From Gammaproteobacteria bacterium (GTDB taxonomy: Bacteria > Pseudomonadota > Gammaproteobacteria > JAUZRS01), in contig JAUZSP010000009.1 of assembly GCA_030949385.1 (NCBI GenBank), positions 62,001-126,000 of the forward strand: DNA of 64,000 bases, in the 5' to 3' direction. The position numbers and the translations under genes were made by a program. Below are positions 1 to 32,291 of this stretch, in pieces (within the stretch, counting starts at the first letter, position 1; the number at the start of each line of letters is the position of its first letter). Below the pieces are notes generated by a model. That model made no database searches. It worked only from the letters and a program-made list of their open reading frames with translations, and was not told where the DNA came from.

Positions 1-352
1 GCACTTGGCTAAAGTCAAACTCTTGGTCGTCTAATTTTGCCACTTTCACCAAACGCGCTCCTAACGCATCCAAACGGGTCATGTACGCTTGCAGTTGACC
101 TAAATGGCGTGTCAGAGCCGTGACTTCTGATTTTGCCTGCTGTAACTGCTCTTGACTCTCACGCTGCTGACGAATATCAGCGTAATTCAATTCAGGCATT
201 TCATTTGAGTTTTGATGCACACCCAACTGATACCCCCAATAAAGCGGCGTGATCAACAGGGATAAAAACAAAAAACCCAATAGCAAAAACTGCACAGGGG
301 AGTTGATTTGCCGTGAGCGAGCGCCCGACTTACTAAAAATAATAATGTTCAT
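1..352 (-). CDS. M23-family murein metallopeptidase, N-terminal part
   Basis: The gene starts at the ATG at 350-352 and runs out of the window, so only about 117 N-terminal codons are visible. They begin MNIIIFSKSGARSR, followed by one membrane segment (about residues 22-42, with LLLGFLFLSLLIT) and then a Gln/Glu-rich region likely to be coiled coil (about residues 60-100). This short cytoplasmic start, single anchor and coiled coil is the usual N-terminus of the LytM/M23 endopeptidases found next to lpxC in gammaproteobacteria. The catalytic domain lies outside the window, so peptidase activity is inferred from family and position only. It is divergent from dciA across about 100 bp that must hold both promoters. 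Confidence 0.75.
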   Translation of the reverse strand, partial: MNIIIFSKSGARSRQINSPVQFLLLGFLFLSLLITPLYWGYQLGVHQNSNEMPELNYADIRQQRESQEQLQQAKSEVTALTRHLGQLQAYMTRLDALGARLVKVAKLDDQEFDFSQV

Positions 353-452
353 AACAGAACCGCGCTGACAAACAGGGGTGGCCACCACCCTCTTCTGTGG
401 GATACTCTATTCATTATGAGACTCAAACAAAAATCAATTGATTAGATAGACC

Positions 453-902
453 ATGCAAAACCTCTACCTCCTTGTACCCAAAAATGTGGGGCGTAAAGCC
501 TCTCGACTCGCCATATTAACCCAGCGCCTACACCACTGCTTGCCCATCGAGTGCCATTCACACTGCCAAGTCATTGAGCTGGTCGGGAAAAAATTAGAAA
601 TTCTTGCAGATTCACCGGCTTGGGCAACACGCATTCGTTTTTATAACAAAGAAATTGTCCATAACCTCAACAAAATTGCCGCCATTCACTTACAGACAAT
701 TAAGGTCAAAGTCGGAGCAAAAAAAACAGTTCTACGAAAACCTGCCACGAGCAAAAAACGCTCAGCAATCAAGTCAACCCAAGCCGCCGTTTCACTCCAG
801 CACTTGGCCGAGAGCATCAACGACCCAAAACTAAGTCAATCACTGCAACGTCTGGCAACCCACGTCGGACAAACTGCGAAAAACCAAAAGAACCCTTTTT
901 AA
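453..902 (+). CDS. dciA: DciA-type (DUF721) replicative helicase loader
   Basis: A 149-residue basic protein. The N-terminal 90 residues match the DUF721/DciA pattern: a start rich in Leu and Arg, then [22 protein letters not shown], the segment typical of the family (KH-like fold), and a Lys-rich tail. DciA loads or stimulates the DnaB helicase in bacteria that lack DnaC. The position between an M23 peptidase gene and lpxC is the same as in Pseudomonas. Its stop codon overlaps the lpxC stop by four bases in convergent orientation (899-902), so no terminator fits between them. Function is assigned from family and synteny; no catalytic residues are expected. Confidence 0.8.
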
Positions 903-22530: not shown

Positions 22531-23498
<968 letters not shown>

Positions 23499-23520
23499 AG
23501 AAGACCCTCACGGCATTGTA

Positions 23521-26500
23521 TTAAGCCGCCTTTCTACGCCTGACTGCCCAAAGTAAAAATAGACCAAACAGCACTTCAGTTCCGCTTAACAAACCACCAC
23601 TGCTTGTTCCCGTTCCCGTTCCCGTTCCCGTTCCCGTTCCCGTTCCCGTTCCCGTTCCCGTTCCCACTGAAAAGCCTGTGCCGGTTAATGAAAGTGACAA
23701 ACTCGTTGGTGTACCGTTACTTTCAAAAGTCAACGTACCCACTTGAGTTCCAGCCAACTGCGGGCTAAAACTCACTGCCACAATCAAACTCGCCCCACGA
23801 GCCAAACGGGTATTGGTGGCGTTGTGACTAAAACCCTGCCCCGAAAGGACAACATTACTGATATCCACATCCCGATTTCCCTGATTGCTCACCGTGATGT
23901 TCAAAACACGTTGCTCACCCAACACCAGCGAACCGAAACTCAACAGCGATTGGTCTAAAGACAATGCGCCAGAAAGCTGGCGCACACCCGCCCGATGCAT
24001 CAGTGGCGCGGCAACACCAAGCTGATTTAAAACCTCAGCCTGAGTCGCATCCCCCTGCCAGGGCGTGGGTGAATTTGCACCTTGAATTGGAATTCGGATT
24101 GCTGAACTGCTCACGCCGGTCGTGGCAGGCAAATTGATTGACATAAAATCATCATTACCCCAAAAGGTGGGCTGTCCCCAAGCAATGCCTGTCGTCTGTT
24201 GGGTGTAAATCAAATTGCTACTTTGAGTCTCAAAATCAAGAATTAAAACTTGAGACTGTCGGCTCTGATTTGCCAAGGTTTCAATAAAATCCAACGCGAT
24301 CACACGATTGCTATTGGAAGCAAACATGGGATAACCCAAATCAACTTCTGGATTTTGAGTTGGAAAAGGAAACGAAAAATCCGGCACCGTTATTGTCGAA
24401 GAAGAGAGATCCAAAAAACCAACCGACCAATAATTCAAACCATTTGACAACCCACTCGCTGAATCGGTAGGTAAACCTTGCACACACGAATTATTGGGCA
24501 GTGAGGTACACGCCAACATATCAAACACCAGCACACGGCTGCTGTAATCAAAATTCAATGAATCGGCGTAATGCACCAAACCAAGCGACGCTTGGGAGCC
24601 ATTTTGATAGCTGGGCAATGGCACGCTGTAATCCAAGCGCGAAGGCGGCGTGGTGGAAAAATCCATAATATGAATTTGATCATCACTGGATAAGCTGGTT
24701 ACATAGGCCAAATAACGACCATCAGGAGAGATGGCAAAACCCCACATATCCGCCGTATTGGTGATTTGCACTTCTTGACGAAGAGAATCCACTTGATACA
24801 AGTTTTTATCATCAGCAACAAAAAAAGCATACGTGCCACTGCTGTCGGTGTAAGCCGCAGGACGGGTGTCAAACGCGGCCCGTGAACTCAACTGAAGATC
24901 ACTGTTTTGATCGTAACCGGTAAACGGATTGGACATTGTCTGAGCAAACAGCTCATGTTGAATCACTGTGCCCACAGTGTCCCTTCTAGGGTAAAGATAG
25001 AACATGACATCAGCACCATTGACCACATCGGTGGTCGTAGGAGTCGTGGGCGAAGGTGCCGTTGCACCTGTCGCCCCATCAAACACTTCCACCGCATCCC
25101 AAGCGGCTTTAACCGAAGCCACCTCAGCCGCCCCCACGCCATGCAAATCCTCAGCGGCTTGCACTAACGCACGCCTGGCATCAATAAATTGCGCCGAGGC
25201 GGTCAAATAAACCGTTAACGCTCGATAATACATCTGCTCCGCTTTTGCCCGCCCAACACTGACCCCCAAACCCTCCACACTCAAACCTTCTGCCAATAGA
25301 TACGCCGCTCGATTGGGAATGCCACTGTTGACGTGTACCCCACCGTTATCGGTTTGTGGGGTATTCGGCATGTTTTTATATTCACTCATTTTCGTCGGCT
25401 GAGGATCCAGTCCCTGAGAGGGGTCTTGCACACTGCGCAAAAAAAACGGTGCTGGGCGAGTACAATCTTCTCCCGCCAACCAATCATCACGATCCACCAT
25501 CATCGAAAACACATCGGCAAAAGACTCATTCAGTGCCCCACTCTGATTTTCATAGATCAGGTTGGCAGAGCTTTCAATCACACCGTGCGTCATTTCATGG
25601 GCGGCCACATCCAAACATTGCGCTAAAGGCTTAAAAATTTGCCCCCCGTCACCGTAAACCATAAACGTACCGTTCCAAAACGCATTATCTAAACCCTGAC
25701 CAAAATGCACCACCACCATTAAATTTTTATTTTTATCATCTATGCTTTGGCGATTAAAGGTATTTTTATAATAGTCATAAACCACTTTGGTATTGGACAT
25801 GGCACTGATCGCCGTAGCATCCCAACCGCCATTGGCGCTGCTGTTACTGACAAACGAAAGGTTTGTACCATCGCCGTTATTGGCGGTCAAAATAAACGTA
25901 TCACCGGTGGCATTAGGGCCATTGGCCACCGGATCGTAACCCGCCGTGACATCAGAGAGCGGCAAGGTCGGATCGACCATTAAATAATCCGTAGAATTTT
26001 GCAACCAACTGTTAAAAAACTGCTGTTTACCCAGCAAATCAACCCCCGTAGAGGACTGCACAGAGTGATGAATATTATGAATTTTATGCACCACAAATCC
26101 TGTGTGAGCATCAATAAAATAGAGCCAACGATCTGACATGCTCGGTTGAACATCCACTTTATAAACCAGCTTAGGAGCAACCTGATCCATGTAGATCATC
26201 AATTCGCTGTTGATCTGCTGCACGTGTGTTAATTTCAGCGCCGTTTTCACCGCCGCCTCTGCATCAGCCGTGCTCAAGGTCGCCTGCGTCGCCAAGGTCA
26301 AACTCGGCTGATAACGCCCGTTGGCCAGATAAAGATTGGCCTGTTTATCCAGATGCAGCGTGAGCTGCTGACCCCACAGCGGCAAACCTTGATGCATTTG
26401 CTGGTAAAAGAGATGCTGCCGCCCCGCCGAATCGGTCACGGATTTTTGCAGCTGCATTTCATCGGCTGGATTTTTCAGCCGCAACAAAGCACGATTGTTT

Positions 26501-26979
26501 AACAAAAACCGCTTAGCAGCGGTTTTGTAATCCAATTCACCGTTCAACAAACGCAGCGAAGGCAAAGCGGACAGGTGCGCTTTGATAAAGGTCGGCGTGC
26601 CACTGCTCCGATCAAAAGCAACCTGCAAAGCTGTGCTACTGCGATGTTGCAAGGCTCGCAAGCCTTGTTGTTGCTGCTCACTGATCAAAGACTGACCAGA
26701 AACAGAACGGGTTTTTTGCCCCAAAGGCAAACTCGATAACTGCTGGAAACGCCGCTCTGCTGCTCCCGCCGAGCGGAAACGTTTATTGATGGGTTTCAGA
26801 CGTGATGCAAGCCGAGGCTCAACAATGCCCTGCGAAACAGAAAACCCTTGCGGCACAGCACCTTGAAAGGGCTGTTTTAAATGGCCTGTGACCTCAGCAT
26901 ACGCAAACCCACTGAGCAACACCGTGGCCGTGGTTGATAACAACAACAGCCCTTTAGAGATCCCTTTTTTTTCCACCAT
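23521..26979 (-). CDS. Secreted thermolysin-type (M4) metalloprotease with propeller-like region, ASH-like domain and C-terminal sorting tail
   Basis: A 1152-residue multidomain protein. Order: signal peptide ending AYA (about residue 28); FTP/PepSY-type propeptide (about residues 125-300, with FYQQMHQGLPLWGQQLTLHL); M4 catalytic domain (about 310-640) with the zinc motif HEMTH near residue 460, the glutamate ligand in NESFADVF and the DNGGVHVNSGIPNRA histidine segment, all intact; a TolB/WD40-like region (about 650-950, with ISPDGRYLAYV); an ASH or choice-of-anchor-D-like domain (about 1015-1105); ten Gly-Thr pairs; and a tail SSGGLLSGTEVLFGLFLLWAVRRRK. That Gly-Gly, hydrophobic helix, Arg cluster tail resembles GlyGly-CTERM signals cut by rhombosortase after type II secretion. 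Likely substrate: extracellular protein. Confidence 0.88.
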   Translation of the reverse strand: MVEKKGISKGLLLLSTTATVLLSGFAYAEVTGHLKQPFQGAVPQGFSVSQGIVEPRLASRLKPINKRFRSAGAAERRFQQLSSLPLGQKTRSVSGQSLISEQQQQGLRALQHRSSTALQVAFDRSSGTPTFIKAHLSALPSLRLLNGELDYKTAAKRFLLNNRALLRLKNPADEMQLQKSVTDSAGRQHLFYQQMHQGLPLWGQQLTLHLDKQANLYLANGRYQPSLTLATQATLSTADAEAAVKTALKLTHVQQINSELMIYMDQVAPKLVYKVDVQPSMSDRWLYFIDAHTGFVVHKIHNIHHSVQSSTGVDLLGKQQFFNSWLQNSTDYLMVDPTLPLSDVTAGYDPVANGPNATGDTFILTANNGDGTNLSFVSNSSANGGWDATAISAMSNTKVVYDYYKNTFNRQSIDDKNKNLMVVVHFGQGLDNAFWNGTFMVYGDGGQIFKPLAQCLDVAAHEMTHGVIESSANLIYENQSGALNESFADVFSMMVDRDDWLAGEDCTRPAPFFLRSVQDPSQGLDPQPTKMSEYKNMPNTPQTDNGGVHVNSGIPNRAAYLLAEGLSVEGLGVSVGRAKAEQMYYRALTVYLTASAQFIDARRALVQAAEDLHGVGAAEVASVKAAWDAVEVFDGATGATAPSPTTPTTTDVVNGADVMFYLYPRRDTVGTVIQHELFAQTMSNPFTGYDQNSDLQLSSRAAFDTRPAAYTDSSGTYAFFVADDKNLYQVDSLRQEVQITNTADMWGFAISPDGRYLAYVTSLSSDDQIHIMDFSTTPPSRLDYSVPLPSYQNGSQASLGLVHYADSLNFDYSSRVLVFDMLACTSLPNNSCVQGLPTDSASGLSNGLNYWSVGFLDLSSSTITVPDFSFPFPTQNPEVDLGYPMFASNSNRVIALDFIETLANQSRQSQVLILDFETQSSNLIYTQQTTGIAWGQPTFWGNDDFMSINLPATTGVSSSAIRIPIQGANSPTPWQGDATQAEVLNQLGVAAPLMHRAGVRQLSGALSLDQSLLSFGSLVLGEQRVLNITVSNQGNRDVDISNVVLSGQGFSHNATNTRLARGASLIVAVSFSPQLAGTQVGTLTFESNGTPTSLSLSLTGTGFSVGTGTGTGTGTGTGTGTGTGTSSGGLLSGTEVLFGLFLLWAVRRRKAA
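23606..23665. repeat. Hexanucleotide microsatellite (gttccc x10)
   Basis: Ten perfect tandem copies of gttccc on the plus strand. On the coding (minus) strand they encode ten Gly-Thr pairs linking the ASH-like domain of the M4 protease to its sorting tail. Because the unit is six bases, copy-number changes lengthen or shorten the linker without altering the frame. Confidence 0.97.
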
Positions 26980-26997: not shown

Positions 26998-27579
26998 CTA
27001 ATAAATTGATGGCGTACCTGCAATGCGTTTGATCAAGCGACCATCGTCAGCATCCAACAACAAAAATTGGCGGATCAAACCACGATGCAACTCCACTTGA
27101 TACACCAGTTTTTTCCCATTCTGCCACGGTGCGTAAACATAAAGCTTGGCCGATGTCACTTTCCACACATTTAGTCCAGCTGGCATCAACGCAACCGCGT
27201 ACTGCGCAACCTCATCCACACCCAGTTGCGGCTCTGTCGCCACCGCTGTCAAACCCGCCACACCCTTACCCGTGACCCGATAAACCTCACCAGCACGGTT
27301 GATGTGTACCCGCAACACCGCCCGCCAAACCGGCACACCGTTCTGCATTTGCTGAAAAGACAGATGTTGAAACCCCAATAGATCTCTTTTTTGGCGCAGC
27401 AAGGTCAATTGCTGCTGAGGGTCGTCGAGCTGAAAACGCATTTTATGCCGCTGTAAATAAGCCAGCGCCGTCTGCTGCTCCAGCGATACCGTTGCTGCAC
27501 CCACAGAAGAATCGCGCACACCGGAGGAACAGGCCACCGCACCCAGCAACACCCACAACCCCAAAGCAATGCGCTTCAT
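26998..27579 (-). CDS. Lipoprotein resembling a free FTP/PepSY protease propeptide
   Basis: A 193-residue protein with a signal peptide ending in a lipobox (GAVAC, cysteine near residue 17). The rest looks like a thermolysin propeptide without a protease: an FTP-like stretch (ALAYLQRHKMRFQLDDP, HLSFQQMQNGVPVWRAVLRVHI) and a PepSY-like end (KKLVYQVELHRG, FLLLDADDGRLIKRI). It is immediately upstream of the M4 protease gene, 18 bp apart on the same strand, and the two share the pattern Q-x-M-x-x-G-x-P-x-W in their propeptides. I infer a chaperone or inhibitor role toward that protease; this is not shown directly. Confidence 0.75.
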   Translation of the reverse strand: MKRIALGLWVLLGAVACSSGVRDSSVGAATVSLEQQTALAYLQRHKMRFQLDDPQQQLTLLRQKRDLLGFQHLSFQQMQNGVPVWRAVLRVHINRAGEVYRVTGKGVAGLTAVATEPQLGVDEVAQYAVALMPAGLNVWKVTSAKLYVYAPWQNGKKLVYQVELHRGLIRQFLLLDADDGRLIKRIAGTPSIY

Positions 27580-27646
27580 CTTAATTTCTCCTCAAAAACA
27601 ACACGGTTGACTTATACTCCAACCACCTCAATTAGGACAGACCCTC

Positions 27647-28429
27647 ATGCTCATCGACAGCCATTGCCACTTAGACCGAGTCAAACTTGCTCCCTTTGCA
27701 GACAATTTTGAGACCATGTTACAGGCCGCCAAAGAGAATCAGGTTGATGCCTTTCTCAATGTCTGCATTGATCTCGAACATTTCGAAGACGTTTTTCAGC
27801 CCACCCAAACACACAACAACATCTGGTGCTCTGTCGGCGTTCACCCCACCGAAAAAGAAGGGCAAGAGCCTGATGTCGAGACTTTAGTTCAACTGGCAAA
27901 ACGGGACAAGGTAATCGCCATTGGCGAAACCGGCATCGACTACCACTGGGAAAATGAAAACATGGAGTGGCAGCGCGAGCGTTTTCGCGTTCACATTCGT
28001 GCTGCCAGACACTGTGGAAAACCCTTAATTATTCACTCTCGCTCCGCCCGTGAAGACACCTTGAAGATCTTCGCTGAAGAAGGTGGCCCTGAAGTCGGTG
28101 GTGTGATGCACTGTTTTGCCGAAGATCTACCCACGGCCAACAAGGCAATGGAGTTGGGTTTGTACATCTCTTTTTCCGGTATCGTCACCTTTAAAAGCGC
28201 CACCGAAATTCAAGAGGCGGCGCAAAACATCCCCCTAGACCGACTTCTGATTGAGACCGATTCACCTTATCTGGCACCCGTGCCTCATCGCGGCAAAGCC
28301 AACCATCCGGCACTGGTGAAACACGTAGCAGAAAAGGTCGCCGAGCTGCGTGGCATCAGCTTTGAAGAGGTCGCTAAAGCCTCCAGTGACAATTTCAGAC
28401 GGCTGTTTAAGGTTGAGAGCTTGATCTGA
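27647..28429 (+). CDS. TatD-family metal-dependent DNase
   Basis: A 260-residue TIM-barrel hydrolase. Metal ligands are visible as the N-terminal DSHCHLD, the glutamate in AIGETGIDYHW, the histidine of LIIHSRSA, HCF in GGVMHCFAE, and the aspartate of IETDSPYLAPVPHRG. The length and start (MLIDSHCHLDR) match the YcfH/TatD group of nucleases. Encoded alone between a minus-strand lipoprotein gene and the convergent mla operon. Confidence 0.93.
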   Translation: MLIDSHCHLDRVKLAPFADNFETMLQAAKENQVDAFLNVCIDLEHFEDVFQPTQTHNNIWCSVGVHPTEKEGQEPDVETLVQLAKRDKVIAIGETGIDYHWENENMEWQRERFRVHIRAARHCGKPLIIHSRSAREDTLKIFAEEGGPEVGGVMHCFAEDLPTANKAMELGLYISFSGIVTFKSATEIQEAAQNIPLDRLLIETDSPYLAPVPHRGKANHPALVKHVAEKVAELRGISFEEVAKASSDNFRRLFKVESLI

Positions 28430-31643: not shown

Positions 31644-32291
31644 TCAAGCCAATAAATCCACCAAAATCTGGCACTGACGCAGATACTCTATGGAAGGCGG
31701 CTGCCCTTCAAGTACCAACAACAGTTCATCAGACTCAATGGCATCACTGGCTAAAAATAACTGCAACTGAGCCCGCAATTCACGCAGCGGCAGGCTATCA
31801 TCGAAAAACAGCACCGGTGCACTGGCAACCCTGTCCGGCTGAGCCATCTGCCAACAGAGGTGCCAATCCCGCTGCCTTAACTGTTCCAACTGCTCCTCAC
31901 TGGGAACACCGTCCAAACAGCGCAGGTAGAGCGACACATTGGCTGGCAGCGGAACATCTTCACTTAACAAATGTACCAGCTGCGACACAGGTAAATCACA
32001 AACCACCGCTTGCAAACGCTGTTGCAGCGCCAAGGGCAAAACATTCAGCTCCGAAAAAGCGTCAAATTCAACGCCATACAATAAGACAAAATCAGCATCA
32101 AGCTCCTCCAACCACTCAGCAAGAGCTTCATCAGAGAGCAACTTTATATCGTCATGCAACAAAAGCAAGGTGCAAAATTCATTGCTGTAATAACGTAAAC
32201 GCCACTCTTCGGGCAAACCTTCAGGATAAAAACTCTCATTCCAAGCGGGGTGATTCACACCGCGACTGCCAACACACATCGTTTTATTCAT
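31644..32291 (-). CDS. Uncharacterised protein with DUF72-like N-terminus, heads the mla operon
   Basis: A 215-residue acidic, Leu-rich protein. Only the N-terminus is suggestive: VGSRGVNHPAWNESFYPEGL then EEWRLRYYSNEFCTLLLL parallels the start of DUF72 TIM-barrel proteins (G-x-x-G-x-x-x-x-x-W-x-x-x-FYP, followed by YY...F). The rest is shorter than DUF72 (usually about 240-300 residues) and I do not recognise it. It lies 27-42 bp ahead of mlaF on the same strand and divergent from mlaA, so it is probably co-transcribed with the Mla genes. No function is proposed. Confidence 0.7.
   Translation of the reverse strand: MNKTMCVGSRGVNHPAWNESFYPEGLPEEWRLRYYSNEFCTLLLLHDDIKLLSDEALAEWLEELDADFVLLYGVEFDAFSELNVLPLALQQRLQAVVCDLPVSQLVHLLSEDVPLPANVSLYLRCLDGVPSEEQLEQLRQRDWHLCWQMAQPDRVASAPVLFFDDSLPLRELRAQLQLFLASDAIESDELLLVLEGQPPSIEYLRQCQILVDLLA

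Follow-up and report, generated by a model that had tools for sequence, protein, structure and literature searches.

A stand-alone, probably lipid-anchored propeptide homologue encoded beside an M4 protease that retains its own propeptide

Why would a thermolysin-type (M4) protease that carries its own propeptide be encoded directly beside a second, separate propeptide-like protein? The question is raised by two genes on the reverse strand of the window, by which we mean the whole 64,000-nucleotide stretch of gammaproteobacterial DNA analysed here, which lies on contig C9 of a 10-contig genome of 2.87 Mb. A sequence-only reading had noticed a lipoprotein gene 18 bp upstream of an M4 protease gene on the same strand, and the open reading frames confirm this arrangement, occupying 26998-27579 (-) and 23521-26979 (-), respectively. 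The features of the lipoprotein gene are as follows:

27588..27593 (-): GAGGAG, ribosome-binding-like site of the lipoprotein gene, from the sequence
26998..27579 (-): stand-alone propeptide lipoprotein, 193 aa, with its own stop codon and separate from the protease gene
27529..27531 (-): putative lipobox cysteine codon, residue 17 (AVAC/S), from a PROSITE-type pattern match
27268..27411 (-): FTP domain, residues 57-104 (Pfam PF07504)
27001..27039 (-): tail, residues 181-193, comprising the last strand and the C-terminus, which stops 13 residues past the DAxxG glycine, near the equivalent of a processed-propeptide C-terminus

The lipoprotein matches the Pfam FTP profile with an E value of 1.4e-12 (47.7 bits against a cut-off of 21), and BLASTP aligns it with the neighbouring protease's own propeptide at 30% identity over 135 aa (7e-13, 54 bits). 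It is no closer to this propeptide than to that of an unpaired M4 protease in the same genome (30%, 67 bits). Both FTP and PepSY had been considered as candidate profiles for the protein; besides its FTP match, the window lipoprotein has no match to Pfam PepSY. Among the six stand-alone proteins of the family described below, two match PepSY (best 0.0026) and all six match FTP (E up to 1, best 1.4e-13). A Pfam scan of the lipoprotein at E up to 1 gave matches to FTP and DUF4901 only, with none to emfourin, a model that we take Pfam to include. Searching the whole genome with the lipoprotein returned only the protein itself and the propeptides of two M4 proteases, and no second short FTP frame was found there. 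The membrane anchor suggested earlier gains support as a probable lipid anchor from the lipobox cysteine at position 17, located with a PROSITE-type pattern. Promoter-like sites number 2 against 4.0 expected, and terminator-like sites 11 against 5.5 expected; we rely on neither.

To describe the fold, we used an AlphaFold2 (AF2) model of the lipoprotein based on an alignment of the 6 stand-alone proteins and 37 cis propeptides (pLDDT 89.8), in which the PepSY half is covered too. Foldseek at E ≤ 0.001 returned four matches, namely YpeB (5boi), the MCP-02 propeptide twice, and the fungalysin propeptide. VIA-align superposes the model on the vibriolysin MCP-02 propeptide 3nqz_A with a Z score of 13.6 and an rmsd of 2.9 over 148 residues, the last aligned model residue, 191, lying opposite chain residue 204; a further MCP-02 propeptide, 3nqy_A, gives Z 13.2, and the fungalysin propeptide 4k90_B gives Z 12.8, with model residue 191 opposite chain residue 245. 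YpeB is a weaker match than the propeptides (Z 9.1, rmsd 6.3 over 142 residues), and YycI gives Z 8.1 with an rmsd of 5.7. The best solved matches to the predicted model are thus propeptides of M4/M36 enzymes that were solved with their enzymes, which, together with the FTP match and the 30% identity to the cis propeptide, upholds the propeptide-like fold claimed for the protein. The order of strands and of the long helix is the same in the lipoprotein model as in the cis propeptide of the protease model, where a further short helix is present; the protease model is the poorer of the two (pLDDT 71). Taken together, sequence and predicted structure identify the lipoprotein as a natural stand-alone homologue of M4 propeptides.

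The lipoprotein also ends where a processed propeptide does. In the 180-residue chain of the MCP-02 propeptide, the profile match extends to residue 179, ten past the glycine of DANTG, which places the chain end at glycine +11. Relative to the DAxxG glycine, the six stand-alone proteins end at +13, +12, +11, +11, +12, and +13, that is, 0-2 residues beyond the processed-propeptide end. A single-domain protein would be forced to end about there anyway, so the shared end point is supportive rather than proof.

The neighbouring protease retains a propeptide of its own, as had been noted from the letters, with a Pfam FTP match of 4.1e-12. Its features are as follows:

23521..26979 (-): M4 (thermolysin-type) protease, 1152 aa, with its own cis propeptide, 18 bp downstream of the lipoprotein gene (Pfam and model)
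26311..26463 (-): cis FTP motif, residues 173-223 (Pfam)
26098..26262 (-): cis PepSY-like part, residues 240-294 (Pfam 0.0011, under the cut-off)
26065..26067 (-): predicted autocleavage after residue 305 (NIHH/SVQ), 11 residues past DAHTG, by comparison with where the MCP-02 chain ends
25084..26049 (-): M4 catalytic and helical domains, residues 311-632 (Pfam PF01447, PF02868)
25585..25599 (-): HEMTH zinc site, residues 461-465, with H461, E462, and H465 conserved without exception in two alignments, of 5 and of 14 proteases
24010..25011 (-): beta-rich, perhaps propeller-like region, residues 657-990 (weak PD40 match, 0.026; strands in the predicted model)
23680..23988 (-): choice-of-anchor D / ASH Ig-like domain, residues ~998-1100 (NF012200 at its cut-off; PF15780)
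23606..23665 (-): Gly-Thr linker from ten perfect 6-bp repeats, from the sequence
23524..23604 (-): C-terminal GG / hydrophobic / RRR tail, sorting-signal-like, from the sequence

The zinc site is thus kept in the paired protease. For the C-terminal tail, the GlyGly-CTERM profile has no match in the window protease or in that of the sister genome G001; the related protease of G145 reaches 15.1 bits, the cut-off being 15.5. Where the window protease has the Gly-Thr repeat linker before this tail, the G001 protease has a GGST-type linker. The genome encodes a second M4 protease of like architecture (L016, 5186-8530 (+), on contig C6), which has no partner gene upstream.

Whether the two genes are conserved as a pair had been raised as a check on the idea, and the pair does occur in other lineages. 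With the strong FTP match, neither of the two outcomes named beforehand as refuting the idea came about, and the earlier interpretation is partly supported. We found it in six genomes from four lineages, the M4 partner retaining its own propeptide in each. The stand-alone gene lies directly upstream of the M4 gene in all six, with gaps of 18, 18, 26, -10, 11, and 32 nt, the value of -10 depending on the GTG start picked for G319. Five of the six stand-alone proteins have a lipobox, the exception being L024. G001 belongs to the same genus as the window genome; its lipoprotein is 52% identical to that of the window, the gap is again 18 bp, and the two pairs have in common a tatD-like neighbour gene. 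G145 and G319, which belong to one genus in another lineage, have the pair among other flanking genes, and two further metagenome-assembled genomes, L024 (Dive96_bin10.188) and L030 (Hainich-H32-bin001), have it as well. Matching lengths and scores indicate that G001 corresponds to L023, G145 to L031 (Granulosicoccaceae sp. 1_MG-2023, strain I2M11), and G319 to L034 (UBA7957). We also considered a fusion by stop-codon read-through; the 18-nt gap of the window and G001 is divisible by three, but the gaps elsewhere are 11, 26, 32, and -10, and we rejected it.

How often M4 genes have such a partner was estimated from the best 80 of 98 relatives, found by protease alignment plus two short peptide patterns, a procedure that biases the sample toward the window protease type. 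Of the 71 loci among these with 800 nt available upstream, five have a short FTP gene there, the window pair being the sixth. When the count is confined to the 11 such loci with proteobacterial titles, the gene is present at five and absent from six.

A close-relative scan of named genomes with the lipoprotein as query returned no match. A single-protein search of 274 genomes of the class gave a match in 7 at 1e-5, with stand-alone frames in G000, G001, and G145; within the order of G145, 2 of 48 genomes match, and both have the pair. A profile search of 369 genomes of the class found at least 23 with a match, and an FTP family search across 398 genomes from the phylum found at least 24 matches in 19 genomes, both counts being lower bounds since scoring was confined to 8 or 16 first-look candidates per genome at the most. 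Among the 24 FTP matches, the only short frame is that of the window genome (197 aa), the other 23 lying in frames of at least 507 aa; the matching genomes listed for this 398-genome search do not include G001, G145, or G319, and some genomes were scored on only 16 first-look candidates. Frames shorter than 300 aa in the 369-genome profile search were those of G000, G001, and G145, a further one on contig C266 of G001, and those of G232 and G213. The C266 frame was rejected as a stand-alone protein because it is a cis propeptide cut off by the contig end, and the G213 frame (L136, E 1.2e-5) was rejected as a pair because no M4 gene was recognised in its ORF list.

The remaining frame, L135 in G232 at 174-845 (+), encodes a 223-aa stand-alone FTP protein (E 3.1e-6) in which no lipobox was discerned, and it too was left out of the count of pairs. 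Downstream of it is an unrelated non-protease gene on the opposite strand, and upstream only 173 nt precede the contig end. On the propeptide tree its end branch measures 5.2 and the rows nearest to it are cis propeptides, but grouping with the six is not rejected (p-AU 0.70). It may belong to another type of stand-alone FTP proteins or be a relative that lacks a partner; having no downstream protease, it counts against strict pairing.

To understand how the stand-alone proteins are related to one another, we built a tree of 33 FTP-PepSY domains (6 stand-alone and 27 cis). The six fall on one side of a branch with support of 90/90 that recurs in 92% of 200 bootstrap trees; the branch is not starred, so a single branch is not proven, and L024 has a long end branch. 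After L135 is added, the branch has support of 89/87 and the bootstrap is not settled. All six share a one-residue deletion before the DA motif. The 36 cis rows that extend over this position do not have it, and the one other row of the 37, which is gapped there, is cut off at that point. A tryptophan before the DA motif, present in 26 of the 37 cis propeptides, is lost in all six, and the tyrosine, present in 30 of the 37, is lost in five, which suggests that their surface may differ from that of the cis propeptides. The paired proteases were also considered as a single clade, which is not supported: on a 26-row catalytic-domain tree they are scattered, with four changes, two of them forced by starred branches (11 of 23). 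This scatter may reflect gains, losses, or poor resolution.

Comparison with G001 shows that lipoprotein and protease form one diverged block with sharp edges between two otherwise close genomes. Third-position identity is 0.73-0.92 in eight flanking genes, against 0.47 in the lipoprotein gene and 0.51 in the protease gene; it drops at about 23450-23500 and returns at about 27640-27690, which are the gene borders of the pair. NG86 dS is 0.13-0.34 in seven flanking genes and 0.59 in orf215, against 1.9 for the lipoprotein and 1.5 for the protease, and the dN/dS values of 0.24 and 0.17, respectively, are rough, with dS near saturation. The unpaired M4 protease barely differs between the two genomes (cis-propeptide end branches of 0.012 and 0.038). 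Replacement of the whole pair by a diverged allele is the likeliest origin of the block, and sorting of old paralogues is a possible one. Fast adaptive evolution of the pair is unsupported, as third-position identity falls across the whole block and dN/dS is roughly 0.2. Elsewhere in the window, beside mla-like genes, the ORF at 31644-32291 (215 aa) is more diverged than its neighbours, with 76% amino acid identity to G001.

Our main reading, to which we give a probability of roughly 0.5, is that the tethered propeptide acts in trans and protects the cell against the protease until type II secretion begins or while it is under way. The lipoprotein would be made first in the two-gene unit, exported by Sec and lipidated, and would be held in the envelope, probably at the outer membrane on the periplasm side. 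There, we infer, it would bind the neighbouring M4 catalytic domain in the manner of a cleaved propeptide, its short C-terminal tail lying at the active-site cleft, so that a prematurely activated protease would stay silent until moved out by the type II system. Encoded in the genome are a type II secretin (597 bits, over the cut-off, as in 2 of 14 control genomes) and a rhombosortase (135 bits, over the cut-off; all 14 controls have weak matches, none over it), and the protease tail looks like a rhombosortase-type signal, although it gave no GlyGly-CTERM profile match. According to PMC6219818, surface arrival of Vibrio VesB requires type II secretion as well as rhombosortase. On these grounds, it is in the periplasm that lipoprotein and protease would meet. 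Because M4 propeptides inhibit their enzymes, according to PMC4282423, we rank a tethered inhibitor or guard above a steric chaperone, and the recurrence of the pair in distant lineages makes a dedicated guard or folding helper of the protease probable. Several observations count against the guard reading: the protease has its own cis propeptide; six of the 11 proteobacterial M4 loci and the second M4 protease of the same genome manage without a partner; the similarity of the lipoprotein to its neighbour's propeptide does not exceed that to the propeptide of the unpaired protease; the lipobox is missing in L024; the lost Trp and Tyr may mean an altered surface; and L135 has no protease gene downstream. 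A bolder version, speculative and rather unlikely in our judgement, would make the envelope-tethered trans propeptide a self-protection factor for a surface protease, swapped between strains with it as one allele, with every lipoprotein specific for the protease encoded beside it; a propeptide would then have been co-opted as an immunity protein.

The alternative to which we give most weight, although we still consider it doubtful, is that the lipoprotein is a membrane-anchored steric chaperone, akin to the lipase foldase Lif, that helps a large multi-domain protease to fold or to engage the type II system, inhibition being incidental. Its gene precedes that of the protease and encodes a lipobox, both of which suit such a role, but the cis propeptide of the protease is complete, and relatives built in the same way manage without the lipoprotein. 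In favour, PMC4282423 describes the M4 propeptide as an inhibitor and cites a title that adds folding assistance, and PMC6490944 describes RhpC as both inhibiting its M4 protease in Pseudomonas and being required for its passage to the periplasm. It is improbable that the regulation or localisation exerted by the lipoprotein concerns a target different from the neighbouring catalytic domain, for example by retaining the enzyme at the surface or by acting on the second M4 protease. Non-proteases, too, are regulated by PepSY proteins (PMC4282423), the match to the other protease's propeptide is slightly better, and L135 stands without a downstream protease; set against these, all six related proteins lie directly upstream of an M4 gene, and no further short FTP frame was found in the genome of the window.

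Two further explanations seem to us very improbable. A plain propeptide homologue beside a protease could be the functionless, decayed remnant of a duplicated protease gene, but the proteins form one branch across lineages, five of the six have a signal peptide with a lipobox, their end point is constant, and dN/dS is 0.24, albeit with dS near saturation. Equally remote is a module resembling toxin and immunity protein, in which the protease, at the surface, would attack neighbours while the lipoprotein shielded the producer and its kin. The pair does diverge from the sister genome as one sharp-edged block, and a Serratia operon of M4 protease and inhibitor has been proposed to work in this manner (PMC9505478); yet the block's divergence comes with low dN/dS, no delivery system beyond general secretion is implied, and neither protein matches any of the 5027 models of PADLOC, an anti-phage library, at E 0.01.

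A stand-alone propeptide beside its likely target, with a matching end point, makes the idea of regulation in trans directly testable with two proteins, and the pair could show how a cell shields its envelope from a secreted, perhaps surface-held, metalloprotease. The proposal that proteases are regulated in trans by stand-alone PepSY proteins dates from 2004 (Yeats et al., cited in PMC4282423), and by 2013, according to the latter, no clear role had been established for PepSY-family proteins without enzymatic domains.

What seems new here is that a propeptide homologue, probably anchored by a lipid, is paired with a protease that has kept a propeptide of its own; the matches listed in the open-licence literature included no paper on this lipoprotein-protease pair. 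The lipoprotein resembles the FTP-PepSY propeptides of M4 enzymes (vibriolysin MCP-02, LasB, thermolysin) in sequence motif, predicted fold, and an end near the processing site, and differs from them in being a separate gene product with a probable lipid anchor. Lif is likewise a membrane-anchored helper whose gene adjoins that of a type II-secreted enzyme, but its fold is unrelated and its lipase has no cis propeptide. The YpeB C-terminal domain and the PepSY lipoprotein SspA are also stand-alone and of PepSY type, with a YpeB fold match to our model (Z 9.1, rmsd 6.3), but they have two PepSY domains and their partner is not an M4 protease; YpeB is reported to inhibit the hydrolase SleB (PMC4282423), whereas the neighbour of the window lipoprotein is an M4 protease and not a spore cortex hydrolase as in YpeB-like regulators. 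Emfourin (M4in), as described in PMC9505478, is a separate inhibitor gene in one operon with the M4 protease protealysin; the window lipoprotein differs in its predicted export and gave no emfourin match in the Pfam scan. Another likeness is to RhpC with RhpP, where, according to PMC6490944, an M4 protease is inhibited by the product of a small partner gene and depends on it for transit; RhpC is cytoplasmic, has a mass of 11 kDa, and has its gene downstream of that of the protease, for which no propeptide is known, and its authors call it a functional mimic of prepropeptides, whereas the lipoprotein described here is a propeptide homologue encoded upstream.
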